Program-made: the position numbers and the translations under genes
The notes under the pieces: generated by a model
Databases searched by the model: none
The model's input: the letters and a program-made list of their open reading frames with translations, nothing else
Told to the model about the DNA's origin: nothing
Part shown: one piece after another, positions 3,401-63,665 of the stretch
Position numbering within the stretch: position 1 is the first letter of the stretch
Layout: each line of letters starts with the position of its first letter
NCBI GenBank assembly: GCA_037783545.1
Contig: JBBELK010000325.1
Span: forward strand, 248,001-312,000
Length of the DNA stretch: 64,000 bases
Origin: Henricia sp. BOLD:AAB3569
Lineage: Eukaryota > Echinodermata > Asteroidea > Spinulosida > Echinasteridae
Direction of reading: 5' to 3'

Positions 3401-6400
3401 CTTTTTCCAGTTTTACTGTGCTATTCAGAGACTACATGTACTGAAATAAAACATGTGGTGCAAGTCTAAAATGAATGTGTGCTTTTGCTTTATTTATAGT
3501 GATTAACTTAATCTCCACTTGTAATTTGGGTAATCTTTCATTAAATTTAAAATGTGAATATTAACAACATTGTTATGGTCTTTAAAATAACTCACAAAAG
3601 AAGCCTTTATGCATCCATTTTGAATTTGCTATACAAAAATACTGAACTGCTAAACAAAATTCAAAAAAAACATTGCATAGCAAATCTGCTATCCAATATT
3701 TCAGAACGAAATCGTTCACTGCAATGTAAGCTGTACATGTAGATTGTACAACCAGGCATGTCCTCACAGAACAAAGAAACTCCCCTACATGATGGCAACT
3801 ATTCGATACAATCTTTTGTAGGTATATTGTACCAGTATGTGTGTAAATTTATAATGTGCATACAGTATGTACCTATAGATTAATACCATACATGTACTGC
3901 AAATTAGCACCTTGGTGCACAGCATGGATTTAGTTTGATGCATGCTTTATGAATGTCACTTTGATGAATATCACGCTTGTGTAACCTTTACAGAAATGAT
4001 AGGAATCCCATTAGGTATCACTGGGGATATGAATGACAACTGTTATTTGTACATTTGGCCTTCTGCATTATAGTCTATGACTGCTTAGAAATGACAATCT
4101 CATGTATAAAGTGACATTGCTGTGGGCACTAGTACTGTACTGTCGCTATGAAACATAATTGACTTTTTATCAGAAAATTAAGATTAATCTGTTGATAGAG
4201 TTATCGGCTTATTTTCTGGCTGTACAATTCAGTTGCAGCTCATACACATGTACTGTACAGTGTACGTACATAATCTTACGATAAAATAATTCAGACGGTA
4301 ACACTTGTACATCATGTAGGCCTTTGCCTCGATATTTACATGTACATGTAGGTGGGTTATAATAAAAATGTGAAAGCAGAACATGGCATGCAGTAATAAG
4401 CTCTTATTTCCCTTAAAAATGTATTCCATTATTTTATTTTTATGTAACATTTTGTTAGCATACATGGACATGTACTGATAGCACAAAAGTCTGAGTCGAC
4501 AACATTAAATGTTTACAGCCTCTGCCCTCAGTGTATCAGGTGTATAGGGTAAGCAAGAAAAAAAAGCAGTGGAATTTTATGACGGGCCAAATGTTGTTTC
4601 ATTTGTAATAAACATTTTACTCATAATATCTGTACAAAACGGTACCTGCACCTCACTATAGGAAATTACAGTACAACTGTTTTTTTTTTTTCCATTTAAT
4701 GAGGCATATTTTTTAGCATTCACTTGTACCAAAACCATGCATGAATTTGAAAGGTTTATAAAACAATGATCACTATTGTTACAGGAAGACGCCAAGGGCC
4801 AGTACTTGCTCATGTTGCTTGACGAAGCTTGCAGCAAACAGAATCTAGGTTTATATAAAACAATACTTATAAATCTATTGTTACAGAAAGACACCAAGGG
4901 CCAGTACTTGCTTGATCAAGCTTGCAGCAGACAGAATCTAGCGGAGAAGGATTATTTTGGCTTGCGTTACATCGATGGAGAAAAGCAGCGAGTAAGTTTT
5001 TTAATTATATACATGTTCAGCCAATCTGCTAGAAATTTTCAAAATATCCTGAATTTTTCAGTAAATTGACTTAAAATGTCAGAATAACACCAAATTACCT
5101 CAAACCAGACACAAATTAACATCAGTCCAATGACAAAGGCCATTTAGGTCTCATTTAGATGTTTGCATTTTTAGCCCACTGTGCCTGGTGAGTGACTCCA
5201 CCCCTTCCCTCACTGATCATACAAGTTGTATGATTTACACAAATTGCACAATGGATCTCTCATTTTGTTTTTAAAGCTCAGAAGGTCTGCCATCTTTCTA
5301 AATTTTCATGAGTTCAAACAAAAATACATGTACGTTTATCGTAACCTTCCACTCAAAAAGAGCCCTCCAAGATGACGTAATGTCACTTTTCCCACTGTAG
5401 AAAGCTTACCGTACAGTATGCGATTTGTAAAATTGTGGTGTGGGTCTTTCCATAAAATAGGAGTCCAAAACATTTTGTGTCCCCTGTTACACCCGACATG
5501 TGCCATTTGCCATACAAGTGTCATTAAAATGGCCTTCAAACCATTTTTTTATGAATTGTACTTTATTTGAGATACATGTACATGTAGAAAGCATTTGTCC
5601 TGAATTTACAAAAAAACAAGATCAGATGTAACGGGGATACAAAACAAATGGAAAATAACCCATATTCATAAAAAAAGTACAATTCCTTACCTTTTTCTTT
5701 TTCTTTGTTTCTTGCTTTAAGCATTGGCTTGATCTGAGGAAGAATGTCGTCAAACAGCTAAGAGGTAAAAACGTAGCATTGGGAGAAACCAAAGATCTTG
5801 TAATCCTAATATTCAGATTCCTGAATACCAATATTTTTTCTCTGTTCCATGTTTTAGGGGCCATCCATAAGTACTACATGTATGTATGCACAGAGGTGGA
5901 GGGGGTCAGAGCTAATGTGTACGCCAAATACTACGTACGCCAATGTTAAAGGCAATGGATGACGTCACAAATTTTTCCCAAAAAATGCATACAGTGGGAG
6001 GGGGGTGGTGTAAAAAGTCGGCATGTTGTGCGTACGTACTTTATGGACGGCCCCTTATCCCGTCAGCCCAAGTGCCAAAGTAGTAAATTATAGATATTTA
6101 CGAGTGCACCACCAGTTGCAAAGGTCAGACTCTGTCAAATTTGCTGTGGGAGGTTCGCCACTCTTCCCACACAGCGAGTCTGTTTACCTTCCGAGCATGA
6201 TGCTGGTACCCAACAGTTTTATACACCTAGATGGAGAGAGGCGAGTGGAGCAAAGTGCCTTGCCTAAGGACACAAGGCATTGGTTGCAAATGGGACTCGC
6301 AATATTTAATAACAAGTCAAGTACGTGATCCAATTGAGCACTTGCATATACCTTATTTGGGAGTCAAATTATGACGTGTCAATGTTGACTCCATGTGCGT

Positions 6401-9400
6401 GCGTGTTGTGTGTACCTCTGGTAGGCGTAACGTGGTTTATTTTACCAATGGGAACCATAGTACAGCGCGTTACGCTTCCTAGAGACACACACAACGCGCG
6501 CACACATCGCTTCAATGACGCGGCATTATTCGACTCCCAAAATGACACAAGCCTATTAAAATATTTTCCCAGGCACAGGTCCACCGTATACTGTGGTATT
6601 CAGGGTCAAATTCTACCCAGCCAATCCAGACGACGTGAAAGAGGACATTACAAAGTACCAGCTATTCTTGCAACTCAAGAAGGATTTATTGCATGGCCGG
6701 TTGTCGTGTACCAAGGATGAAGCAGCACTGTTAGGAGCATATATTGTGCAATGTAAGGAATTGTAAACTCAATCAGTACGTCTCGGACCATTTAAAACAA
6801 TTTTTTTAACGTACGTACCACACTTCTTGAGAATTTTTTTAGGAATCATTTTTTTAGGAATTACACTTCTATCAAGGATGCTTGAAAAACATTCGTTTAA
6901 AGACAGATTACATAATTGGAAAACTTTTAAAAACAGGAACAACGACATTTATTAATTAACTAAAGAATAATGTTGATAAACTGTCTTGTAGAAAATTTAG
7001 CCACATAGATGTAGACACATAACAATAATCACGCACATTGCTATTGTGCTGAACTGTTTGTTTATTCAAAGAAATAGGTGGCATCAGCGAGTTTGAGGGC
7101 TGGAAATTCGTCACTGAAAGGGCACTGCCAATTGTGTTTTTGGAGGAGTCTTCTGGAGTTTAAAAAGGGCACTTCCATTTGAAAATGAAAAAGTCTATGG
7201 GAGAATTGCAAAAGGGCACCAAGGCCAAGACCAGAGGCAATGGCCTGGAGGCCTGGAGTTTGTGTATGGGCAAGAGTAACTTCGAAAGCCTCATTACCAC
7301 GATGAATAACCCATTTCGTTTTGAATGTTTGCATGTACAAACAGTTTCACTTGTTGAAATGTCACTGTGGCTCACCTTTTGCTTGTTTTGCTGACAGCCA
7401 ACCTCAGAGATTACGACCCCGAGGAACATTCCCCAGGCTATGTGTCCCAGTTTCAGATTGTTCCTAAACAAACGGAGAAACTCGAAAGGCAAATTGAAGA
7501 ACTGCATGAACAACAAACGAGGTAAATTGTTTCTACTTCATTTTATTAGTTAAACATTCTTCACACGTCAACGTATGCTGGCTATCTGGACACTTCAATA
7601 GTTTCCCATTTTGGGAATATAACATTGGTCAGGATGTGTTAATGTAGAGCCCCTTCAACAGGCTTATTTCGCCTGGTCCACAGACATTTAAGCCCTGTTT
7701 CAAGGGGTTGAACACAATGGAATCTTTCACTCCACTGGGTAACAAAGGGATTAAATTTTCACCCAAGTTTGCAAGATATTTCTCCAATTGTATTGCCAAG
7801 TTGTTTTGAAAATAGAATGGCAAACTTTTGAGGCGCTTTGTGGCAGCAAACAACAATCCCACATGATCAGTCCATTATTATTTCTGTCATTTTGAGCGTG
7901 CACACTTTAGCTCAATAGTGACACGAAACAATAATGGACTGGCCACGTAGGAACGTTATGTTTACTGCCACTTAAAGCGTCTCAGTCTCCCATTAAATCT
8001 GAATGGAATCACAACTAACGGGTCGTCCAAAGTCGTCAACATTTTCACCGTTCTACAGAGCGTAGTATTTTTCAAGATGCTCTCTTTTCCCCTGAAATAT
8101 TACTTATCAACATTTTTCTGTCAGTACCATGAAGTATCAACATTTTACAGTGCATGTAAAGTCATACACGGCCCTCGACCCCCTACCCCTTGCTACACTT
8201 TGTAGAACCGTGAAAATGTTGACAAAATTATATCAGCTCAGTTTAAATCGTTTACTTGACGCTATTGTAAACTTCTCTGTTTATTTGAGCAGTGGATTGA
8301 AGCCTAATGATGCAGAGTTTGCTTTCATTAAGAAGGCATTCAGCCTCCAAACCTACGGTATTGATCCTCATCCTGTACGGGTAAGAATCTCAACTTAGAT
8401 TAGAAATTGATTGATTGATTGATTGGGTAATTGAATGTTTGATCGGAGGATTAAATGTTTGATCGGAGGATGGAATGTTTGATCGGGGGAATTAAATGTT
8501 TGATCGGGGGAATTAAATGTTTGATCGGGGATTGATTGTTTGATCGGGGGATTGATTGTTTGATCGGGGGATTGATTGTTTGATCGGGGGATTGATTGTT
8601 TGATCGGGGGATTGATTGTTTGATCGGGGGTTTTGATGGGTTGATCGGGGATTTTGATGGGTTGATCGGGGGTTTTGATGGGTTGATTGGGGTTTTGATG
8701 GGTTGATTGGGGGGTTTTGATGGGTTGATCGGGGGATTGATGGTTTGATCAGTGTATTTGGCCAATAATTCAGCTGTTATTTCAAATTTACTCCCTGGAA
8801 TCATGCTGCCCTCAACTCTCAAGAACCGCGCTAACGTTCTCAAGATTGTGATATTTTGTTTGTTTGTTGGTTGGTGCCTTACCAGGATATCTACGGCACT
8901 GCACTGCACATTGGAATGAACCATGCTGGTCTACGGGTATTCAGAGCTGAAGCTGTAGTTGAAACATTTCAATGGGATGACGTTAAGAAGTTTAGCTATG
9001 AAGGAAGGACGTTTTTTATCCACGCTCAAATTGCCGAGGTAAGATTGATCAGAAAAGCAATGATGTAGTACACGCCTTTTTTTTTTTTTTTGGCATGACA
9101 GGGATGATCCAATGATAGGTATTTTCCTGAGAGAAAAAAGAACACTCACCATAAATGCTTGTCCTGGGTCCTATTTCATAAAAGCCCACTGTTACTGGTT
9201 TTCTAAAAAAGTCTTTTTTTTTTTTTTTAAGTATTACTGCCTCTATATAACTTAAATTTTTACTGGGCAGTTTCATCAACATAGGCTTTCATTCATGAGT
9301 GAAAATAATGCCCTTTTTAACAGTTTACCAATCATGTGTTCTCCATTTAAAGGTACGTTTATATAGTACAAAATATGCCGTTATTTCTCATTTCCCCATT

Positions 9401-21478: not shown

Positions 21479-22461
21479 ATACAGTACATGTAATTTTTGT
21501 TATAGTCCGAAGGCATGTGGGCACCATTAGAAAATGCCACGTAGCTAGTTATCTTAGACACTAAAAACAAGAAAAACATGACGTTCACCCAAAACAATAT
21601 GAGCGGACCTCGAGCTCTAGATTGGGAGTGGGTTCGTTTGAAACCCCCACCCCCACCCCACCAAACGTTAAGCCAGATGTTCAGTTTAAGAAGCCAGTGG
21701 TTTGGCCACGCTGTTTGAACGGAACGCAGTAAGCAAACATCGCCCGATCGAACGCATGAAAATAACAGACGCCACTGGTCATCGACCACAAGACAATATC
21801 GCGACCAGAAGAACAATGTCGATCCGTTTGAATATTTCACGACATTTGTACAGAATTTGACGTAAGCGATTCCAGTGTAGTTTTTACAGCGCATGGAATT
21901 TTATACTAGCATCCATAAAGCATGTACCGGTATATTTTGCGTTTAATTCGACGCCCGGCTTCATCCAGGAGCGACGAATTGGTGGCACTTGTCCCGAGTC
22001 CAGAAGTCGACACACTTCGTTGGCGCGAAATAGATTAATTGATGTTAATTTATATCGAAGATTAATGGTGATAGTCTTTATCAGGAAACTGCCCAACACT
22101 GAGCAGTTATATGAGGGGTTCTTCCGCAAACCCAGCGACTAAGTGACATTTTCTAACGAGATACATGCATCTGTTTTGGCTTACAAATCTTCATAGAACT
22201 AACAATCTCTGTTCATGTAACGATACAACACAACTGCTAACTCGGGCTAGACATTCCACCCAAGCCTTATTCATCGAGGCAATATGTCGCCAAAGTGTCG
22301 CGTGTTATGCTGCTACTAGAGAAAGAATAACTCGGCAGCTGACGCCATTTTAAGTGAGACATGTTTCTTCAGCCTGCCCCCCAAATTGCTGGTTTTAAAT
22401 TCTCGCCAGATATGAGATAGGCTTGTGCCGTGTCGTTACCAATACGTCAAGTTAATTCCCC

Positions 22462-23505
22462 ATGGCGAACTCAACCGACGCCCCACCCACTGTATGCTGT
22501 TCAGTCACGCCCACCCAGCGTACTATCTTTCTGATGATAGATGTTGTCCTGTTCCTAGCAATCACCATTGGTAACACTCTGGTGCTTCTCTCCGTGGCCA
22601 TCTACAGCCGGCTCCAGACACCAACTAACCGATTCCTTGCTAGTCTAGCAGTAGCAGATCTCTTCGTGTCTCTAGTTTGCCTGCCGACCGACGCCCTTAT
22701 AGGGTTGGGGCTCATCCCCACCGTGTCTCCCTGGGTTTGTGCCGTGGGGAGTAGCATGACTACTCTGGCCATAACTGTCTCGTTAAACCATCTGACCGTG
22801 GTAGCCTTTGATCGCTTTATAGCAATCACCAAACCATTGAAGTACCTGCAACAGATGACGCCGCGTGCTGTAAACCTACTCATCGCTGCGTCTTGGACAC
22901 TCTGTCTCATTTTCTCGCTGCTGCCATTTTTTGGCTGGAACCAGATCAGAGACTTTGGTTACTGCGATCTTCTATTCATTCACGTCTTCAGTTATCGCTT
23001 GACGGGTATCCTTCTCATGGCCTTTGTTCCAGTCATGCTTGTAGGATACGTATACTTCAAGATATTCCAAGTAGCGAGGCAACACAGCAAGCGTATAGCT
23101 GCCGAAAACCGCATCTTCAATCGGCATGGAGAGCGATCCCTGTCTCGTGACTTGAAAGCTGCAAAAACTCTGGCCGTTGTCTTAGGAACATTCCTCATAG
23201 CGGTCACTCCGGCCGCTGTAATCAGTGTAGCTGACCTCATGTTCCCTGTGAGTGATCTCTTTCTATATAAAATCATCTGCTATCACATTCTATACGCTAA
23301 TTCGGCAATGAATCCGATCACGTACGCTTTTCGCAATAAAGAATTTCGCCTGGCGTTCATTAAACTTCTGGCCAAACTATTCCGATGTAAACGCTGGCAG
23401 GACATGGCGAGGAAGGCTACACGTAGCCTGGTTGACCAAACTTTACCAAGTCAGGACCAAATATCTAGACACGAGGCGGCGCCATCGGTCACCGGGACAA
23501 AATAG
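22462..23505 (+). CDS. Class A (rhodopsin-family) orphan GPCR-1, single exon
   Basis: A 347-aa intronless seven-helix receptor at the plasma membrane. Hallmarks: N-glycosylation site N3ST; TM1 GN at 37-38; TM2 LAVAD (D66); C93 at the top of TM3 and C168 in loop 2 for the usual disulfide; DRF (117-119) in place of DRY; W145 in TM4; TM6 motif AVTP in place of CWLP; NPITY (284-288); a basic helix 8 (RNKEFRLAF). Position 3.32 is Thr100, not Asp, so an aminergic ligand is unlikely. The NSxxNPITYAFRNKEF end resembles adenosine and related receptors, but the ligand cannot be assigned. ATG context ccccATGGCG is strong. Possible poly(A) AATAAA near 24729. Confidence 0.92.
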   Translation: MANSTDAPPTVCCSVTPTQRTIFLMIDVVLFLAITIGNTLVLLSVAIYSRLQTPTNRFLASLAVADLFVSLVCLPTDALIGLGLIPTVSPWVCAVGSSMTTLAITVSLNHLTVVAFDRFIAITKPLKYLQQMTPRAVNLLIAASWTLCLIFSLLPFFGWNQIRDFGYCDLLFIHVFSYRLTGILLMAFVPVMLVGYVYFKIFQVARQHSKRIAAENRIFNRHGERSLSRDLKAAKTLAVVLGTFLIAVTPAAVISVADLMFPVSDLFLYKIICYHILYANSAMNPITYAFRNKEFRLAFIKLLAKLFRCKRWQDMARKATRSLVDQTLPSQDQISRHEAAPSVTGTK

Positions 23506-39400: not shown

Positions 39401-42400
39401 GTTCTGGTGATTTCCTGATGGCAGTGGTAATAATGGCAACAGCGCCAGGAGCACCCCACAGGGTGGACAATGTGCGCTATGTAAGAATCCACCATTATTA
39501 TTAAACACTGCATAGAGGCCTTTGAGATGGAGGCTAACTCAACAACTTTTTTAGTCACTTTCACAAAAACAAAAAAACAAAATAAATTCAGGTAGCATTT
39601 TTTTCTTTGAAACATATCAATCATACTGACCATTTTGTGTCTATTTTACAACCTGTAACTGTTTTGGCCCTAGCACTTTGTGTACCTATGATCCTAAGTA
39701 CATGCACCAACAGTAAAGCCCGTCGCAAACCTTGACCATTTACCGGAAGTCATTCAAACCAAATTTTGTATTTTTGTGTCTATTTTCCAGCCTGTAACTG
39801 CTTTGGGCACAGCCATTTATGTACCTATGATCCCATCATTGCAAGTACCAACAGTAGCTTGGATGCCGTTGGAATGTACAATGGTGGTGGAATGTGCCAG
39901 GACTGCCAGAACTTTACTGCAGGTATTTACTTCAACTTTTCATTTATGTGCTCTTTCCCCTGCCCCCCACCCCCGCGCTGAACTAATTGTATGTGTCGCT
40001 CCGATTAAAATTTGGTTTCAGACTGACGCTCTTAATGGAAGCCGTGCCCACACTAAAGATTGACGTCTGAAACCAAGGCCAATTTGTCCCATACGTCGAA
40101 CTTAATTCAAATTTCTGGGATAATTTAGTTCGGCGCGACTCTGGTGCACCAGTATTAAACGGTTAGTGTGTATGCAATTTTTGATTGTGTGTAATCAATA
40201 ACACCCCTCAATCCTCAAAAATCAATATGATTTTACATACACCCTAGGGAGTTCTGGTATTTTTTATTTATTTATTTATTCACCACATCCAACGGCGGAG
40301 GGCCGCCAATTACAGGAATGGGATCAATTAACCTAGATATTCGAATAACTATCAACTTCTAAGTTAAATTAGAAATAGTTTAGTTCAAATAATTGAAACC
40401 AAGGAATCCCCAAAAGTGCTTGAGGCACTGTAGCTTGTAAGCCTGAAGAAACCTGTGAAGAGAAGACGATGAAGAAATGCTCAGTTTTAGAGGTAGGAGT
40501 AAAACCCCTACTCAATTCTGTATAGGGAGAAACCCACAGAATTAAGCAGGGACTGAGAACCCAATCCACATACTTACCCGGACGGGATTCGAACCAGGGA
40601 CGGGATTCAAATCTAAAAAATAATGGCAGATTTGGAATTCGTGTCAAATTCCTTTTCCAACAATATACATTGTGTAAAAAGTTGGCTCAGTAGCTCATGA
40701 GATATGAGGTTTCAAAATCAGGCAGTCAAGCCTTATTTATCCAACATTTAAGGGGATGTATAGAGCTTCTGCACCGGCAGCCATGACAGGGGGCAGGTTT
40801 TCTTATTTAAATGATGTAACAATAGAACCACAAAGCATAACACACAGTAACAATGTGACTGCCCCCTGTTATGGCCGCTGTGCAAAGGCTCTATATCCCA
40901 AATCACTTGTTCAATTGATCTACAATTTGAGATTTGGTGCCGTGGGATCCCAGTCAACAAGTATACCAAGATTCATCAAAATCTGAGATGGTCTGGTTTA
41001 ACCTAGTGGGTGATTGAACATGGAATGACCTTAAACCCACTTCTTGACTAAATCATTGAAACTGACATTTTGCAAACTGCTTTTCATTTTAAGGAATCAA
41101 CTGCCACGAGTGTCAGACATTCTACTTCCGTCCATTGAGCAAACAACAGTCCGACGGAGACGCTTGTCAGCCGTGTAGCTGCAACCTGCCTGGTACAAGG
41201 TCTGATCCTAGTATTGGCTTGGTCAAGGGACAGTGTGTCATGAATAATGATAATCCAACTCCAAATGGAATGGTAAGTAGGCAATTCCATAGACGCCTTG
41301 CACTGGCGGCCATGACAGGGGGCGCAGGTTTTTATATATTTAAATATGACAACAGATCTACAAAGCACCTACTCGTGCATGACGCACAGTGACAATGTGA
41401 CTGCCCCTTTTCATGGCCCTTCATGCAAAGGGTCCTATCATATTTTATGTTGCGCTTGCATCCGAATCACTCCATTGACTAATAGCGCAAATGCAACGCA
41501 CGCGAGACAGATGAAAAATGGACCAATGGAAAGGCGCCTTTACTCTATTAACTCTGTCTGTATTGCATTGTTTTACCAGACGCCTGGAGACTGTTTCTGT
41601 AAAATCAACGTCCGAGGATCTAAATGCGATGAGTGTGCTGATGGATTCTATGATTTGACGGATGCAAACTCAAATGGCTGTCTCAGTGAGTACAAACCAC
41701 CAAGAATGATGATAATGGTAGATTGTTATTACGTTTGTGCTTTACGACATCATTTTGGGAGTCAAATAATGCCGCGTCATTGTTGAAGCGATGTTAATGC
41801 ACGTTGTGTGTGTCTCTAGCAAGCGTAACGCGCTGTACTAAGGTTCCCATTGGTGAATTAAACCGTGTTATGCCAACCAGAGGCACACACAACACGCACG
41901 CACATGGAGTCAACACGTGACGCGTCATACTTTGACTCCCAAACGAAGTATGCAAGTGCTCAATAGACCCCTTGTACCAGTGGCCATGACAGTGGTCAGG
42001 TTTTCATATTTAAATGATGTGACAATAGATCCAAACAAAGTACAAAGTACCTACTCATGCATGACGCACTGTGACAATGTGACTGCCTCCTGTCATGGCT
42101 GCCAGTGCAAAGGGTTTATAGACCAATTGTCTACCCTGCAGGTTACTTCTGGCACTGTTGTCACTGCCATTAGGAATCACCAGAACCATTTTGCTTCAGT
42201 AAGAAATGGCACAGGAATTTCCTTTCAAAAAGTTGGCAACTTGGAAAAGCCATTTTCACAAATACATCAAAATGTTGCATAGTAGCTCCCGCTATTATAG
42301 AAGGATCAAAATCCCCTTTTTTGGTTCATTCAAATTGAATTGTGTTTGTATTCATCAGGTTGCAACTGCTTCACCCAGGGCACCGTGCAAGCATCCAATA

Positions 42401-45400
42401 TCTGCAATAAGGATGTAACTGGCCAATGTCCCTGCAAGAACTTTACCACAGGGCGGCGCTGTGACCAGTGTATGGATAGCTACTATGGTTTGGCTGCTGA
42501 TAATCCAGAGGGGTGTTTAGCATGCTCTTGTGATACCGGAGGGGCCTTCAGTGCTACATGTGATAAACAGACAGGGAATTGTGCATGTCGGAGTCGCATT
42601 GAGGGAAGACAGTGTAACGGGTATGTATAACCCATTCGATCTCATGTGTATATTTGTTGAAAGGGATTTCTTTTTCTGTCCAAATTCATGTGACTGAAGT
42701 GTTAAGATCCAGCCATCCAGTCATTTTGAAGGGCAGTGGTGATCCATGTTGTCATTTGGTGACCCAAACAATGTTACATGTAATGATTGTGTTCCTTTTT
42801 AAAGTTGCTAGAAGCGCTTCAACGTTAGGGGCTTACTGGGTTGGTTTGTTGATTTACTCAATCGGCGTGAAACGGGGCCTTTTCATACTACCCTACTTTA
42901 CACTCAATCAGTGCTGAGCTTGAAACCGTTAATGAGGTTATCATGTTTTACAGCTTAGCAGCCTTTTAATACTACCCAACTTTACACTCAATCAGTGCTG
43001 AGCTTGAAACCATTAATGAGGTTATCATATTTTACAGCTTGGCAGCCTTCTCATACTACCCAATTTTACACTCAATCAGTGCTGAGCTTGAAATCGTTAA
43101 TGAGGTTATCATATTTTACAGCTTAGCAGCCTTTTTATGCTACCCAATTTTACACTCAATCAGTGCTGAGCGTGAAACTGTTCTTATCATATTTTACAGC
43201 TTAGCCGCCTTTTCTTACTACCCAACTTTACACTCAATCAGCGCTGAGTTTGAAACTGTCAATCATCCCAACTGGGGACGTGATAGCATCATGTATCCAG
43301 GTTTCAGGTGGTATGGTTATGTCACACTCACAGGGCAGGTAAGCTAAACAAATCGCAGTGAAGTTACTCTTGTAAAACATGATGTTCAGAGTGCATACCT
43401 GCCAACTAGTCCGATTTTATCGTATTTGTTCCGATTTTTAAGTGTTAAGCGTTGAAAATCGAAACAATCGGAAAGGTCAACTTGACCTGACTTCCCGCGC
43501 GCGCCACATGTGTTGTGTACATGAAAACGGATGCAGTACTAGGTCAACTTGACCATTGTACCAACTCGACCGTTGCAAGTTTCACTACAGTCTGATTGTT
43601 TTACTCGGCAATGTTGGCAGGTATGAGAGTGGACTCGTATTGTTTTTCTGAGATTATAATAATTTTGTGTTTAAATTATACTGCTGTTCATATTGGCACT
43701 TTCGACTCGAGGGAGCGGGGGGATTTTACTGAGACTGTAGTGAAAACAGATGACTTCGAAATTAATATGACAATCTGTATTGTGGTCGCAAGGGCCTAAC
43801 ATGCTCAGGAAATTAATACTGAAACTAAATTGAACTAAAGTAACTAAAAGTAACGGTTGCAAGAACGACTGATGGGAAGTTTCATTTATTTTGAGACAAG
43901 ATAAAGGAATAGGCCTATGTTTGAATTTTTATTTTTATTTTATTTTTATTTCATTTATTTCCACACTTCCACAAAATAACTAACAAATCAAAATTTTACA
44001 ATTTGTTTGTATAAAACGAACCCAAAAGAAGCATAGCTTGTATGTATGGACCCATAATGTCTTGGTTGTCAAAGGTACCCCCTTTATTACAAAGTACCAC
44101 AAACACTTTTGAGACCTTGTTTAATTCCTGACAGTTACATTTTCAAATCTGAAAGGACTTTGTCGCAAAGATGTTGCTTTTCTCCACCTAAAAGTAAATG
44201 AGCACCTGAAAAGTAGGATTGCTTGTCATTCTAATTTCCTTCTAAATTTTCTTTCCAGATGTCAACCACCACTACTCTCTCAGTACCCCCCTCACAGCTG
44301 AGTGGTACATTCCAGATTATCCTCAGGGCTGCTAATGTGGGTGCCACTCGGGTGGGCTTGACCATTAGTCCCCGAGGGGTGACAGGAGGCACTACCCAGA
44401 TGGGAACTGTGAATCTTCCCCTGTGTTCATCATGGTGTTTTGATGGTAGAGCGCTGAATGCGGACTCCAGTCTAGGGTCAAATTTCACACTTAGTCCTGG
44501 TGAATGGGACGTCATGGTCACTGTCAATCTTCAAGGTGGCGCTACAGTCCTTTTTGTGAGTTGCGTTGTCTTATTTTAATTTTTTCCCCCTGTAAAAGTA
44601 GTGACCTCACATTCTGACTCCAGCAGAGTCTTCTTTAAAGGCAAAATAAAGACAGGGATGTCAGTCTTCCGGCTATAGCCAGAATTCCGGCTTTTTCTTA
44701 TTTTGGAGGAAAAAAATCCGGAAATATAAGGAGAATATATTTGCAACTCTTCAAGTCCCCCCAAAAAAGTGGAAAATTGTTTCAACTTACTGATCAACGA
44801 TGTCTAGATATGCCACGTATGTGAAGCCTATGTACATGTATGTACACACACGTAGCATGTTTTCCCAATGATTTGCACACATGCAGTATGTCTGTATCCC
44901 GGCCGTAATCATTCACGGCTAAAGTACCGCAAAACCAGACTATGGATCAGAAGTACATAGAGGGCGCTGTATGGACAGCAGTGGTTAGATCACATACATA
45001 CTGTCAACAGTACTCTGCTGGCGAGTCCATGTGCACACATATAAATGTACATGCAGCTATGATAGTGGCCGTATATTTGTTTTCCGGCCCTGAAGGTAAG
45101 GGCCGCTGGCATCCCTGTAAAGAGGACTCGTGAACCTGGATAATCTGCCAAACACAGTAAATTGCCTCAATGAACCAAACTACAGTGGGAAATTCTATAA
45201 GGAGCTTAAAAAGGTTATAAAAACTGAACAAATTTCAACTTTTCAATGAAGTATCCTTTGTTGCACTTCACTTTTAGCTGTTTTTCATCTATAGACATAC
45301 ATTGTGGTATGTTTTATGATGTTTGTATATCCATGCATGTGCACGCTAAACCTCTATATAAGTGTCACCTGGCCACATTTTGTCGGTCCCTTGGATGGCC

Positions 45401-48400
45401 ACTATACAAGTTTCACTGTAGTTTATATATGTACCATTCGACATCATGTATTTTATCTTGGTATAATTTCTGTACCATTCAGGACCAAATTGTTGCCTTA
45501 CCAGCCGAGTTCATTGACCCTTCACCTCTGCTTGGAGACACTGCTGCGGTTGAATTCACAACAACTTGTGATGTTTACAGCAATGACATGAGGTATGACA
45601 ACATATTGAAACAATAATGTATGCTTTAGTAACAAAAGATTGCTCTTAACAACTACAAAGCTTGTCTGTCCTGCTTAGCAACGACTTATGAATGCAAAAT
45701 GAATTCCAACTATAGAAATCGAATTTAAAGTAACAGATGAATGAAATGGCTCCAGTGTTCTCCACTGCCGGTTTTGGCCGGGCGCGTTTCCCGGACAAAA
45801 TCGACACAGGTACCGTTAGCGCCCAGACAAACATTTTCCGCCCGGACAAAAATAATAAATGTTCCCCTCTAAAACACTGTGGAAGTACAGCCAAGTCATA
45901 CCAAAATTAGGTGTAAATTAACCAATCGTGATGAGCGTCATGACGGCGCCCCCGGACAGAATTTGTACCAGTGGAGAACACTGAGCTCATCACTAGGCAA
46001 TGTGTCAAATACATAAAAACTAGCAATTGCTTTTTCTAGGCTTTTACCTACATTCTTATACATACAAATAAGCAAGTGCTCACAAGCAAAAGCAAGAACT
46101 AATTTCGTGCAACGAAACACGCAGCTCCATGCATTTGCTATGGAGCTGCGTATTTCTTGGCACAAATTTGGCACGCGCACATTGTTGAGGAGCCTGTCGG
46201 GGATGTCAGAGTTCAGGCAATTGCCTGATTTAAGGCTTTTTCATTATGTTCGTCTGTACATAACTGCATATGTTTATACACATTTCAGGCAAAAGTCCCT
46301 GAGATTTCAGGCAAAATTTTGACCGTCAACTGACATCCCTAAGCCTGTGTTATTGTCTGTAGTCAGTAATAACGTTTTATCAGCTTGACAGCATTGGCAC
46401 GAAAAATCTTACTTGAACACATGTAAATGATTGGATTGAGCCAGCTACTGCTGTTGGATGCAACATAAGACAAACCGAGTATGGTTTTAGCTATTGCATC
46501 ATACCCATTACTGCATGTGTATGAAGTGGCTATGAACTGCGGCAGCCAACTTGCAAGGAAAGTCACGTTAACAATCAGAAGCATTCTCAGAGCTTTCCAT
46601 CCGGCAAAACTTGGTGGGCGATGAATCTCGGGAACTGCGTTGTTATCATGTTCTTGTCTCGCAGTCGGAGCCGGAAACTGTGCGATTCGTAAAGCCTGCC
46701 TGCGACTGATTTGCATAAGCTTCATGTAGATGATGATTAGAACGGTTTCTGGCAGAAAAATTACGAATCCAGTTAACAATATGGACACAACACAGTTCTG
46801 CCTAATATTGGGAAAACAGCCGATGTACTGTTGGTACACGACTCCATTTGATGCGATAAAAATTAGTATTGGTGCTGTTGCTAGACTAATTGAGACCACA
46901 GCGGTGATGATAATGGCGCGTTTTTTGGTCATCAGTGTTGGATATCGCAGTGGCCGTGTTATAGCGAGATAACGGTCAATTCCAATAAGAACCAAAATGG
47001 CGATCAAAGCATTCAGCATTGAACCTTGAATGACCGTGTTTGCTTTGCAAACAAATTCCCCAGCTGGGCTCTCCGTGGCATGTCTGATGATCAAACTGGG
47101 CAGAAATGTGAAGCCGAGAAAAAGATCAACGATGACTAACGTGAAGAGAAAAACCTTGGTGCTGTCGGCGATGTCCGTGTCTGGGGTCACTTTGAGCACG
47201 CACAAACACAACAGGTTTCCTGGGATGGCTAAAAGGGCCGAGATCCCATCCGTTGCCGAGTAAAAGGCAGAATAGTCAGACAACACTATCTCATATTCCC
47301 CTGAAGAATTCATCGTGAATCGTTTACAAAGAGAACGTGTGTGGTCAGTGGGTATGAAGTGGGTTTGTGTCCCTTGGCAAGACACTTATTCTCAATTGCC
47401 TCATCCACCCTAGCTGCAATTGGGGAGCTGTTGGGGGAATGTTACAATCTAAGCGCTGATAGGATGTGCGCCACAGCCCGGCAGCACGCCCAAACAAAGA
47501 GATGATTCTGATGATTCCCTGATGGCAGCGATAACAGTGCCAACAGCGCTTTGATTCTCTGGTTAAAATGCGCTATACAATAATGAGCATTATTATTATT
47601 ATTAAAACAAGTTTTCTTTGCTGGTGCAGTCTTGCAAAATTTCACAACTTGGCTACGAGCAAAACCGACGAAACGCTTGCAGCGATGGTCCAACCCATAC
47701 TGCTTCAGTTTCAACTGACGTCAAAGCTTTCAGTCCAAACTAAGAATATTCTCAAAGCGTTGAATCACTGCATTTTACTAGAAACAATATTAACCCTAAT
47801 CGATCGCTTATTCCTGCTTGAATACAGTATTTTTGCTTCTCTCTTGGACCGACATCAGCTTTGCTATATAACCCGGCCAGTGATGTGGATTAATAGACAG
47901 TTTGATAGATTAGCTCCTTACCCATCCAATATGCCAAGGTTTTACTAATGGACTATCTTAATGAATCAGGTTTTCCTAATGACAGAATTTGTTAGGTTTA
48001 ATTTCCAACCGATAGCCTTTATAAAACCACCGTCCATCTCGAGGATGGAATACTTGATTGGAATTTAATGACAAGTTGAATCTATGTAAATATTGTCCAT
48101 GTCTGATGTTTGTTTTTATTATGCTAGGCTACGTCACTCTTGGAAATATATTCATACGACAAACAAAACTTGAGTTGTTTTCTGCAGCAAAGCGTCAAAT
48201 CAGAATTTGACTTTTTTTCTAATGACAGAATTTGTCGGGTTAAATTTTCAACCGGTAGCCTTCATCAAACAAGCGTCCATCACAGTGATTGGAATTTAAT
48301 GAGAAGTAGAATCCATGTAAATATTATCCCCACCTTATGTTTAGCTTTATTATGCTAGGCTACATCACTCTTGCAGATGCTCATTTCTGACGTATGACAA

Positions 48401-51400: not shown

Positions 51401-54400
51401 GTACCTGCAAGGGTTGCAGACGTTGAGCGCTTGTGTGTCGAGCTGCCGGGGCTGCGAACTCCCCAGGGAGTTGTGCCCAATGACCAGGTTGATAATATGT
51501 AAAGCGCCATGAGTATCCCACAGGATAGATGAGTGCGCTATATAAGATGCTTTTATTATTGTGTGTCAGGCTGCAGGGGCTGCATACTCTCCAGGGAGTT
51601 GTACCCAATGACCAGGGTGATAATATGTAAAGCGCCATGAGTATCCCACAGGATAGATGAGTGCGCTATATAAGATGCTTTTATTATTGTGTGTCAGGCT
51701 GCAGGGGCTGCATACTCTCCAGGGAGTTGTACCCAATGACCAGGGTGATAATATGTAAAGCGCCATGAGTATCCCACAGGATAGATGAGTGCGCTATATA
51801 AGATGCTTTTATTATTGTGTGGCAGGCTGCAGGGGCTGCATACTCCCCAGGGAGTTGTACCCAATGACCAGGGTGATAATATGTAAAGCGCCATGAGTAT
51901 CCCACAGGATAGATGAGTGCGCTATATAAGATGCTTTTATTATTGTGTGTCAGGCTGCAGGGGCTGCGTACTCCCCAGGGAGTTGTGCCCAATGACCAGG
52001 GTGATAATGTGTAAAGCGCCATGAGTATCCCACAGGATAGATATGTGCGCTATATAAGATGCTTTTATTATTGTGTGGCAGGCTGCAGGGGCTGCGTACT
52101 CCCCAGGGAGTTGTGCCCAATGACCAGGGTGATAATGTGTAAAGCGCCATGAGTATCCCACAGGATAGATATGTGCGCTATATAAGATGCTTTTATTATT
52201 GTGTGGCAGGCTGCAGGGGCTGCATACTCTCCAGGGAGTTGTACCCAATGACCAGGGTGATAATATGTAAAGCGCCATGAATATCCTGCAGGATAGATAT
52301 GTGCGCTATATAAGATGCTTTTATTATTGTGTGGCAGGCTGCAGGGGCTGCGTACTCCCCAGGGAGTTGTGCCCAATGACCAGGGTGATAATGTGTAAAG
52401 CGCCATGAGTATCCCACAGGATAGATATGTGCGCTATATAAGATGCTTTTATTATTGTGTGGCAGGCTGCAGGGGCTGCATACTCTCCAGGGAGTTGTAC
52501 CCAATGACCAGGGTGATAATGTGTAAAGTGCCATGAGTATCCCACAGGATAGATGAGTGCGCTATATAAGATGCCATTATTATTCTGTATTTGTTTGTTC
52601 GTTAGGAATTGGCGGAGGGTTTGACATGCAGTAACTGTGCTCCAGGTAGCTTCTTTAAATCACCCCAGCATCCAACAGGCTGCTTACAGTGTGTATGTAT
52701 GGGAATCACTACAGCCTGTGATAGTACACAAGACAAGGCAGTACAGGTAATTCAGGTGGCAATCTTCTGTATACAAGATGTCCCGCAAACATTTGGTATC
52801 ACAAAATGTGCTGTGGCTAAGCTTCATTTTGTGTCTGACTAAGATTGGGTAAAATGACAATTGCTGCATTTTGGAACCTATTAGCTGGGCTTAGCTTTTT
52901 CATTGAAAACAATAACTGGTAAACAACATTTATTCAAGAGGGAAAAAATATGTACATTTCATGTGATTTTTTTATTCATGCTTTAAAATTGTAAAAAGAA
53001 AGTCATTACGACATTGCCTTTTATCCATGTTCATTGGATTCACGCTGTTAATTTCTTAGGAGCCATTTGGGTCTTTCTATAAATTAGGGGTCCAAAAGTG
53101 TGACATATAGTGTCCCCCGTTACACCTGATATGTGTTATTTTTTCGTACAAAAATCATTAAAATGGCCTTTAAACCATTTTTGTATGAATTATACTTTAT
53201 GTACTCACTCTTTGAGATGGAAAGTATTTAAAGAACGTGTCCTGACACCAAAATTGGACCCCTAATTTATAGAAAGACCTACTTGTCTCTTTTCTAAAGT
53301 GACCAACACAGCTATTTTTTTACACTTTGTGATTGACTTTCATGTTATATTTTCTTTAGAGCTATGTTATGTTAAATCCTTCCCTCTACAGTACACCATT
53401 GCAACACACACTAGTCTCCTGTCCAGCTAGTCACTGGTTTCTCACCCAGCTGACCTATCACTCAATGCCCCAATAACTACCCTTATAACTTTGTGAATGA
53501 CTTTCAGAGCTGTTTTGTTTTATTCTTTCCCCCACAGTACACCATTTCAACAGACGCTAGTCTCCTGTCCAGCTGGTCTATCGTTTCAGACCCAGCTGCC
53601 CTATCACCCTTCCCTAACGCCCCAATAACGGCCCTTGTCAGTGCTACTACAGTCATCAGCGTTACTGTATCGTCTGGCCAGGATGCCTATTGGACAATCC
53701 CACTGTTGCCTAGGTCTCTACTGGGTTTCTATGGCAGCCGTTTGCAGTTCTCTCTGCACTACACAGTGCAGGGTCCACCACAAGGCTCTGCGCCACAAGA
53801 AGCTTGGATTTATATCAAGGTATCGGGAATTGTTGACTTATTATAATCTGGATATGTATGTAAGAGTCAATAAAAGCATAGGTGCAGAGGAGGCTTTGGT
53901 TAGAACAGTTTGGGGCTTTCCATTAAATAGCCCTCTTTAATTTAAACTCAACTCCATAGTTTAGATTAAATAGAGTTTAAAGTGAAAACATCGCCCTTTG
54001 TGTGTTGCCAAGGTTACTGGGTCTACACTAAAACCAGTGAACTGTTTCCCTGCACTTTAAGCAAACTAGCAACTGACGTCATAATTCAGTAGTCCATTAG
54101 GTCGTTCAGACGAGGGGCTATCTCTGGAGCTAGCTCCGGAGCTAGCTAGCTCCGGAGCTAGCTAGCTCCACCCCAAACTCCTGTCGTTAGAATGCAATTG
54201 GCTCCACCTTTGGGTCTAGCTCCGGGGCTAGCCCTCCCCAAGTTTAGCCCCAAACATTTGTGGGGCTAGCCCCACTTTCAGCACAGCTGAATTTTATGAC
54301 TTAACCGCACCATTATTTACTGACTGAACGCAACTGACCTCGCTCTGTGGCATCTGGCCAATGTTAATATGCTATCAAATTTGACCACATTTTAGCTCCC

Positions 54401-57400: not shown

Positions 57401-60400
57401 AGTATAAAAACACACTACCCTTACAGATACATGTACACTAAAAACAATACAATTAAAATTGCAAGAGTATCAAGAAATTCCGTAGTAAACCTCATCTCCT
57501 CAGTTGTTCGTTAAAAATGCGGATAGCTGTGGGAACAAATGCATTTGCATACCTCAAGGTCCTAATTTTCTTCTGCAGAATACGATTACTTCGTAAACCA
57601 TTCCACTATGACCAACCCTAGCTACCAGACGGTTCCTGCACACCATGTTTCTGCCATGGTAACACCAATCAGTGCCATGCATTAACTGGTCGCTCCCTTA
57701 AACATTCCCCATTGATCATTCTACAGGTGTGAACCATTCCACAACGGCCAACCCCAGCTACCAGGTGGTTTCTGTACACCATGTTTCTGCTATGGTAACA
57801 CCAATCAGTGCAATGCAATCACTGGTCGTTGCCTGGGGTGTGCGTCACGCACAACAGGATTTCAGTGTGAGAGGTGTCAGGACTTCACGTTTGGAAATGC
57901 TTCACTCAGAAACTGTCAAGGTAATTTTTGTTTTTAATTAAAATGTCAATTTACAGCCTGTAGATTGATTTGCATAAAGCGTACAAGTATGTTCCACCAA
58001 ACTTGGGATGAAAGAAAATGTGTGCAGGCCTGAGCTATAAGGCACAGTGGTATACTCCCCCAGGTTTTCCCCATAAACTCATTGTGTTTGACCTAAATAT
58101 CGAGAGATACATAGGTGGGTGGTGCCATTGGCAGTAATCCCCTTACTCTTCATGAAAGGGTGCTCAGGGATCTTTTTTAGTGCATAACACAACACACTGA
58201 ACCAACGGCTTTACATCCCTTCCGAAGGATGGAGTAAGTGTGTTTAAGTGCTTTGCTCAAGGGCACAGGTACAACGGCCGGGTATCAAACCAGCAACCCC
58301 AAAGTTTTCACCCGAGTGTTGCGAGTCAACGACCCAAAACACTCGGCCACGGTGTCCCACAAAAATGTCATGACTTTTCATTTAGCAAATTGACAGTATC
58401 GTGGAAACTCACAAAATCATGTAGGTACTGAAAATATTATTCATGTAATGAACCAGGGGTTGTTTTCACAAAATGCTATAATCCTTCGTAACTCGAGATG
58501 CACGTTAATACTCGAGATGCACAATAGGCCAAAAACACTTTCAACCGTGCACGTCAAATTTTTTTTCTTCAAAAATACAAAAACAAAAAAAGGCACTTAG
58601 AGACGCACAGTCTTGTCAAGCTGCTGTTGACATCAGTTGGGGCTCGAACTTCACGACGACCTCTTTTCCCAGTACTTTTAACCACAATGCCCTTGAATTT
58701 TTGACAGTAATTACTGTTGGCTTCATATCAACCTCACTTTATTGCTTGGAATCCACTTACAAGAAAACAAAAAACGAATTTTGAAAAGAAATTGGGTACA
58801 GCTATGCAATAATCGTGCAGGTTGACACTAAAAAACCTGTAATGAGTTTTAAACGGTGTTCTCATGTTTGAATAAATTTGATTTTGCCCTATAATCAGAT
58901 TGCAGCTGTGACCCTGTTGGCTCCATGAACACCAGCCTGTGTGACCATTTCACCGGTCAGTGTCCCTGCCAGCCTGGCGTCGGTGACCGGCGATGCGATG
59001 CATGCCTATCCAACTACTACGGTTTGACCAGTCAAGGATGCCAAGCCTGCGATTGTAATAGGTTAGGTTCACTCAGTCTGCAGTGCACCGACAACGGAGT
59101 GTGCTCATGTCGTATGAATGTCAATGGTGCTAAGTGTGACCAGTGCATGATGGGAAGTTATGGTTTGCCTCACCAGCCGTGTGCAAGTAAATATGGCTGG
59201 ATCCGAATTAGTGGCTTTGGCTGTGGCTGCGGCTGTTGCTATGCTGTTTCTAAGGACTTTCATTGTCTGCCCATAGCAACAGCCATAGCCACAGCCAAAG
59301 CCACTAATTCGGATCCAGCCTATCTCAACATGTACAGTTGAAGTCAGAAGTATAAATACATGTACACCACTACCATCATCACCCAAAATGGTAAACAGGA
59401 CTACTCGGACCATTGCAAGGTGTACAAGCTATGTTTTTAAGTACTGCAAGCACGTGAGGAATTCCACAAAATCCAGATTTTAGTAAAGACTGTTACAAAA
59501 ATGGTGTAAGCACACCAGGGCTGCATTCCAAATACGCGAACGTTGCCAACGTTCGCCACTGGTTACAGTGCTTTTGTGCACTCGTCTATGGAAAGCCGGG
59601 TACCAGTTGTTGGCAAATGTTGCAAACATTTGCAATGTTCGCGTGTTTGGAACGCAGCCCAGTTTTAACACTTAGTTGCATACAGTTGTATTTATACTTC
59701 TGATTTCAACTGTATATCAGAAGTGTTGGCGATTGGCGTATTTAGTTTTAATTATTTATTAAAGGCACAGGCTCGTCAGCAATGCGCGGGCGCCAAATTC
59801 GTGCCACGAAATACGCAGCTTCATGCCTTTGCTATGGAGCTGCGTATTTCGTGGCACGATTTTGGCGCGCGCGCATTGCTGACGAGCCTGTGCCTTTAAC
59901 CTCATCTGTTTCAAAACATTGTTTAAAGGTGCTTGTTCAGATTTTCCAGAAAATGGATTTCGTTCTAACTTAACAATCATATAAAATACCTCCCCAAAAT
60001 ACTATACATGGGAAGAAAACAGAAAATTTACAATCTCCAATTTGGATGTGGAAGCAAAAAAGTTGGTGTAATTATACTGCACTGCTTTATGGAACTGGAT
60101 AAATTAGATTTAAAAACATCGGTGGTTTTTTTCGATATCCTTAGAAATATCCAGATTGGGAGTGCGAAATTTCAGACTGGTAATGAGAAAAATATGACAC
60201 ATGATATGGTATCAAAATCTCAACACCCATGGGAAAAATGAGGGGCTCAAAAATGTGATCTGGTCATGCTCCTTTAATAGAAAAGCAGATAATTTCACAG
60301 TAAACATTAATTGAGATTAAATTACATAATTAATAACCACGAGTTGTGGGTTCAACTGTCAACTGAGCATGCTTCAGAGTTTTAACACATTTTTGGGAAA

Positions 60401-63445: not shown

Positions 63446-63665
63446 ACCGCTCGATTTCACGAAGCGCTACGATCCATCATAACTACGAGATGCACGTTAC
63501 TCGAGACGCACGTTACTCGAGACGCACGTTACTCGAGACGCACGTTACCCGAGACGCACGTTACCCGAGACGCACGTTACCCGAGACGCACGTTACCCGA
63601 GACGCACGTTACCCGAGACGCACGTTACCCGAGACGCACGTTACCCGAGACGCACGTTACGGCGG
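63446..63665. repeat. 16-bp minisatellite, eleven copies, in laminin intron 27
   Basis: Units of gagacgcacgttaccc with 16-bp spacing: gcacgttac starts at 63492, 63508 and so on to 63652. The first units read tcgag and later ones ccgag. The left flank (gatttcacgaagcgctacga) resembles a MITE end, and a related element near 58452-58530 has only two diverged units (actcgagatgcac). Confidence 0.92.

Follow-up and report, generated by a model that had tools for sequence, protein, structure and literature searches.

The laminin-type gene and the repeats before exon 10

The window (the whole stretch of DNA that was analyzed, 64 kb in length) includes a laminin-type gene in which exon 10 is preceded by a row of copies of its own start and acceptor, giving five units in total. 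Translated together, exons 9 and 10 and the beginning of exon 11 (180 aa) match Pfam EGF_laminin (E 1.6e-17), and the LE domain of exon 9 matches laminin beta-1 from the PDB (E 1.7e-27). The series of LE exons extends over ∼38.8–60.7 kb, with further members assigned by eye from their cysteine pattern. Past the last LE cysteine, ∼20 residues align to laminin beta-2 without an insert (the LE-to-LF junction), and this is one reason, together with the substitutions described below, for taking the acceptor at 43199 as the normal one. The preliminary description placed an LF exon of a laminin gene here. The matched LE domains uphold the gene, but exon 10 onward is only a probable LF domain, because the LF part alone (exons 10–12) gave no match in Pfam (E ≤ 1) or in the PDB (E ≤ 10), even though the junction aligns. 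The LAMININ_IV_B model had no match in the genome, and none in any control either.

The features of the array and its flanking exons are

42359..42620, + strand: exon 9, an LE domain plus part of the next LE; open frame, donor gtatgt
42877..42960, + strand: unit 1, a copy of the exon start with no acceptor ahead of it; acceptor 42953 is close to the unit end
42961..43044, + strand: unit 2, which reads TTT TAA behind acceptor 42953; acceptor 43037 lies near the unit end
43045..43128, + strand: unit 3, open behind 43037 (predicted form with 54 extra residues); acceptor 43121 lies near the unit end
43129..43206, + strand: unit 4, open behind 43121 (predicted form with 26 extra residues), with Tyr-to-Cys and Leu-to-Arg changes and a shorter junction; acceptor 43199 lies near the end
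43200..43338, + strand: exon 10, the probable LF start, containing unit 5 (43207–43263); acceptor 43199 taken as normal, donor gtaagc

Self-BLAST pairs place the unit starts at 42877, 42961, 43045, 43129, and 43207, at spacings of 84, 84, 84, and 78 nt (all multiples of three), and every unit start is GCC, the third full codon of the exon. TRF reports 42877–43263 with period 84 (4.7 copies, 88% matches, score 592), and the two methods together bear out the five-unit array and the periods originally proposed for it. An ungapped repeat finder returned four copies (spacing 84, 84, 78), the last of them at 60%. Chance origin of the array is excluded because the unit pairs reach E values down to 1e-113 in the self-BLAST of the window. 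Over 57 exonic sites, pairwise divergence among units is 5.3%–17.5%. A DNA search with 42800–43400 found the array at a single place in the 740,731,340-base assembly, and exon 10 as a protein query matched itself and its four upstream copies, and nothing else.

The direct repeat spans the end of the intron, the AG, and the start of the exon (TATCAT.TTTTACAG in common, followed by the exon start CTT.GC). In the junctions of units 1–2, 2–3, and 3–4 the intronic stretch is ∼17–20 nt long and reads GAGGTTATCATATTTTACAG or one base different. The sequence first given for this stretch, ATCATATTTTACAG, is therefore too short, and the junction of units 4 and 5 differs in sequence from the others, is 6 nt shorter, and has lost GAGG. 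Inspection of the sequence and translation agrees with the earlier statement that unit 1 is without an acceptor. A degenerate additional unit upstream of unit 1 was considered and rejected, as its local alignment score was reached by 551 of 1000 Markov controls; for a candidate confined to the 31 nt adjoining unit 1, the score was reached by 556 of 2000 shuffles and by 576 of 1701 real intron windows.

Reading frames, acceptors, and changes among the units

When exon 9 (42359–42620) is joined to the acceptor at 43199, the translation is open and has no insert; joined to 43121 or 43037 it is also open, with 26 or 54 extra residues, respectively, units 3 and 4 being free of in-frame stops. The junction to 42953 gives GLAAF followed by TAA. 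Translation thus confirms both the shared frame of the three acceptors and the stop that had been predicted for the acceptor of unit 2. Unit 4 is present in both longer predicted forms and would give each of them an additional cysteine and the hydrophobic stretch VLIIFY, next to the disulfide-rich LE domain. The mean hydropathy of the 26 extra residues is 1.1.

Acceptor strength was scored with a matrix built from 14 acceptors placed in the laminin gene (leave-one-out scores −2.53 to 14.83). The array acceptors score 3.79 bits (42953), 5.35 bits (43037), 5.35 bits (43121), and 9.37 bits (43199), so that the acceptor of exon 10 is the highest-scoring of the array. Of the 1,716 other AGs of the region, 4.2% reach 5.35 bits or more, and 0.5% reach 9.37 or more. 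It should be noted that a 14-site matrix is a weak judge, because a background AG at 42811 in intron 9 scores 6.96 bits and so outscores the upstream array acceptors. The AG-free stretch before the acceptor is 17, 17, and 17 nt at the upstream sites versus 29 nt at exon 10; in 15 real acceptors it ranges from 17 to 87 nt, with one as low as 17. Both the longer AG-free stretch and the better pyrimidine tract at 43199 follow from the shorter junction of units 4 and 5 and its loss of GAGG, and we infer that this change favored the last acceptor.

Because their scores fall within the range of the gene's real acceptors, occasional use of 43121 and 43037 is plausible. The upstream acceptors, which are intact, might be used at noise level, with the products tolerated or removed, and we give such leaky splicing somewhat less than an even chance; it would be compatible with the explanation favored below. 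The 4-bit advantage of the exon 10 acceptor speaks against it. Human tandem splice sites offer a parallel in its favor (PMC8055015): the minor sites are usually at least 10 times weaker than the major site, and many are believed to be noise. As in those cases, several sites stand in series with one dominant; however, the human sites described there are closer together, include donors, and need no duplication, whereas here the acceptors are spaced by 78–84 nt, each with a pyrimidine tract of its own.

The analysis of substitutions took in 20 codons (18 in unit 1), with the codons at unit junctions excluded and the majority base among units used as the reference. A Thr-to-Ile change common to units 3 and 4 was counted once, and a synonymous ACC/ACT difference that units 4 and 5 have in common was excluded. 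Ten changes are confined to units 1–4 (three synonymous, six missense, and one nonsense). With 30.3% synonymous expected under neutrality and 3/10 observed, no excess of synonymous changes was found in the alternative parts, although the changes are few. In unit 5 (exon 10), four of the five changes confined to it are synonymous (one-sided p 0.03). The contrast between units 1–4 and unit 5 is not significant (Fisher p 0.12, small counts); the counts, though small, agree with drifting copies and a constrained exon 10.

Copies of exon parts in the window and in a genome sample

Four further exons of the window have a copy of their start upstream; self-BLAST gave all but the one at 39633–39715:

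4752..4846, + strand: acceptor and exon-start copy in a FERM_N gene, adjoining 4847–4939; acceptor 4784 intact, 34 additional residues open in frame
39633..39715, + strand: exon-start copy in the laminin gene, of 39772–39856 (81% identity, E 2.8e-17); acceptor AG changed to AA, frame broken
53354..53484, + strand: acceptor and exon-start copy, of the presumed laminin exon 53501–53636; acceptor 53391 intact, in-frame TAG
57593..57698, + strand: exon-start copy without an acceptor, of 57729–57834 (85.8% identity, E 2e-28)

The presumed exon 53501–53636 is placed in the laminin gene by position only, because the open frame 53538–53819 had no Pfam match. In three of these four copies, either the acceptor is lost or absent or a stop interrupts the frame. 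The copy at the FERM_N exon (4752–4939) is a second candidate of the array's sort. Counting the array, the window has five exon-start copies: two keep the frame with no stop (the rough expectation is one in three), four include the acceptor (broken in one), and all five lie upstream of their exon. As a separate observation, a tandem array of nine 128-bp units (51431–52588, 96% matches) ends 17 nt before an exon placed at 52606.

Exon places elsewhere in the genome were located by homology. Together, 44 of 83 myosin-head matches and 11 of the 12 laminin-paralog matches that lie outside contig C325 gave 55 distinct places; 10 of these were on contigs that resemble second copies and were left out (none of the 10 had a copy), leaving 45. 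A direct copy within 1.5 kb was found at three of the 45 myosin and laminin exon places, and at two of 20 kinesin places (20 chosen of 128 matches, with short flanks of 450 nt). For the whole sample this amounts to 5/65 exons (5/75 if second copies are included), with two copies upstream and three downstream. Of 3600 random draws of a 180-nt segment, 508 (14%) had a direct copy within 1.5 kb, and 438 (12%) had one within 300 nt; these draws come from 18 stretches, are nonindependent, and include the window's own arrays. Comparison of ORFs between loci for exon calling was spoiled by interspersed repeats and was left out of the results.

None of the five copies in the sample carries an acceptor: both upstream copies consist of internal exon sequence, and each of the three downstream copies has a donor or a donor-like GT. 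Thus, acceptor-carrying copies were found solely in the window, and the bias toward the acceptor side suggested by the window (5/5 upstream) was not upheld in the sample. In the laminin gene, four of 16 placed exons have a copy, which is above the sample (p 0.07 against 3/45 or 5/65, 0.05 against 5/75), with the window searched for copies under stricter settings than the genome sample.

One of the sampled copies differs between closely similar contigs. A 113-nt copy of the end of a myosin exon, with its donor, is present in L033 (contig C353) and absent in L032 (contig C372), and beside it 1.7 kb of the two loci are 99.2% identical. The difference probably represents presence and absence between two haplotypes, with recent paralogs as the alternative. 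Ten pairs of myosin loci on six contig pairs (L034/L035, L028/L029, L033/L032, L045/L046, L037/L038, L047/L049, L026/L025, L030/L031, L022/L024, and L044/L048) are ∼82%–99% identical at the DNA level, in pieces, as if the assembly had kept both haplotypes of a very variable animal. Pieces of kinesin exons also occur in a neighboring intron, at 334–417 of L070 (95%) and 628–710 of L077 (87% identity).

Origin of the array and possible use of its acceptors

The explanation that we favor, and hold to be quite likely, is that the array is a local tandem duplication across an acceptor that expanded to five units, of which the last acceptor is used while the others decay. A DNA duplication across the boundary of intron 9 and exon 10 would have copied the acceptor and approximately the first 66 nt of exon 10. 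Of the two resulting acceptors, the downstream one would leave the exon intact, and the upstream copy would become intron and be free to change. Further exchange between the copies, presumably by unequal exchange or slippage, would then have led to five units. As the protein alignment and the substitutions suggest, the acceptor at 43199 would make the normal protein, and the upstream units would drift inside intron 9, where three acceptors remain, two of them in frame by chance; these may see low, noise-like use. Simple tandem duplication is insufficient for unit 1, which has no acceptor, and an added deletion would be needed.

Decay is consistent with the nonsense change, the mixed types of change, and the location of the best signals at the last acceptor. 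Short local duplications thus seem to have left the extra copies behind as neutral remnants, and the copies do not have the look of a tuned source of variants. The case is ordinary in kind, because short local copies are frequent in the genome; what is unusual here is the copy number, the intact acceptors, and the frame common to all copies. The lack of an acceptor in any of the sampled copies has slightly lowered our confidence in the decay reading. Also counting against it are the unit spacings, every one divisible by three, upstream acceptor scores that real sites share, and the higher proportion of exons with copies in the laminin gene than in the sample.

Duplication across an intron–exon boundary is of a known kind, with a published case in the potato RdRp gene, where a tandem duplication of this sort gave rise to a new intron (PMC4974935). 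In that case, as here, the copied stretch crosses the acceptor and takes a putative branch site, pyrimidine tract, and 3' splice site to a second place; however, a new intron was detected there, whereas here there are five copies, known from DNA alone and most likely inside an old intron. Some new introns of Drosophila are likewise explained by regional tandem duplication (PMC2891723). There too, short tandem duplications with splice signals alter exon–intron structure, and a length that is a multiple of three allows differential splicing, but those duplications lie inside coding sequence and use AG/GY sites, whereas the duplication described here runs across an existing acceptor. No comparable row of acceptors in a laminin gene was seen among the literature matches listed, although its absence is not thereby proved.

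Tandem exon duplication with mutually exclusive splicing is a further familiar arrangement, in which exon sequence is copied beside itself. In the array, by comparison, just the 5' part of the exon and its acceptor are copied, without the exon's own donor.

A more ambitious reading is that the array forms a regulated, working set of acceptors, with splicing to 43121 or 43037 adding 26 or 54 residues between LE and LF. The preliminary description predicted the longer isoforms, and part of its case stands: the array is real, both frames are kept with no in-frame stop in units 3 and 4, and the acceptors are intact and score within the real range. Moreover, as the genome sample holds no acceptor-carrying copies, the array is not just one of many. 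Nevertheless, the changes in the copies are neutral in pattern and fit no constraint, each longer form would receive the new cysteine and hydrophobic stretch of unit 4, the upstream acceptors are weaker and have a short AG-free stretch, the window's four further exon-start copies include three broken ones, and in the genome sample local copies beside exons are no commoner than beside random DNA. Functional isoforms from the upstream acceptors are thus not supported, and we regard a regulated set as unlikely. Similarly doubtful is the stronger proposal that 43199, 43121, and 43037 are all used and that unit number varies among individuals, which would make this a length-variable laminin with an LE–LF linker that changes in steps of 26–28 residues. 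If this were true, the locus would be a natural test bed for competition among near-identical serial acceptors.

Assembly error, by which the number of units was inflated or collapsed, gains some credit from the second contigs kept for some loci, but is very unlikely, given that the array is at one place only in the assembly and that units this divergent at their exonic sites are not copies of one read. Least probable of all, and barely credible, is that the units serve as 67-nt cassette micro-exons, as an incipient gain of an exon or intron, with acceptor 42953 or 43037 paired with the donor-like GAG/GTTATC at the end of the next exon copy, which would then be joined to exon 10. GAG/GTTATC occurs after 42936, 43020, and 43104, and the intron gain in potato RdRp (PMC4974935) is a precedent; against this reading, the site is far from the donor consensus, GTRAGT, 67 nt disrupts the frame, and the unit before exon 10 has no GAG/GTTATC.

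As a source of protein variation, the array is probably unimportant. It is a useful natural experiment, with four near-identical serial acceptors, of known differences, before one exon. In this genome exon parts often have local copies, and of two near-twin contigs one carries at least one such copy that the other lacks. With RNA and population reads, loci of this sort allow direct measurement of how acceptors are chosen and of what becomes of duplications that cross a boundary.

Some other features of the window may be mentioned. Two long single-exon open frames, 46366–47385 (− strand) and 22456–23502 (+ strand), have by eye the look of rhodopsin-type GPCRs, and the former lies inside a laminin intron, on the opposite strand. 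Minisatellites occur at 8409–8750 (20-bp units) and 63486–63660 (16-bp units).
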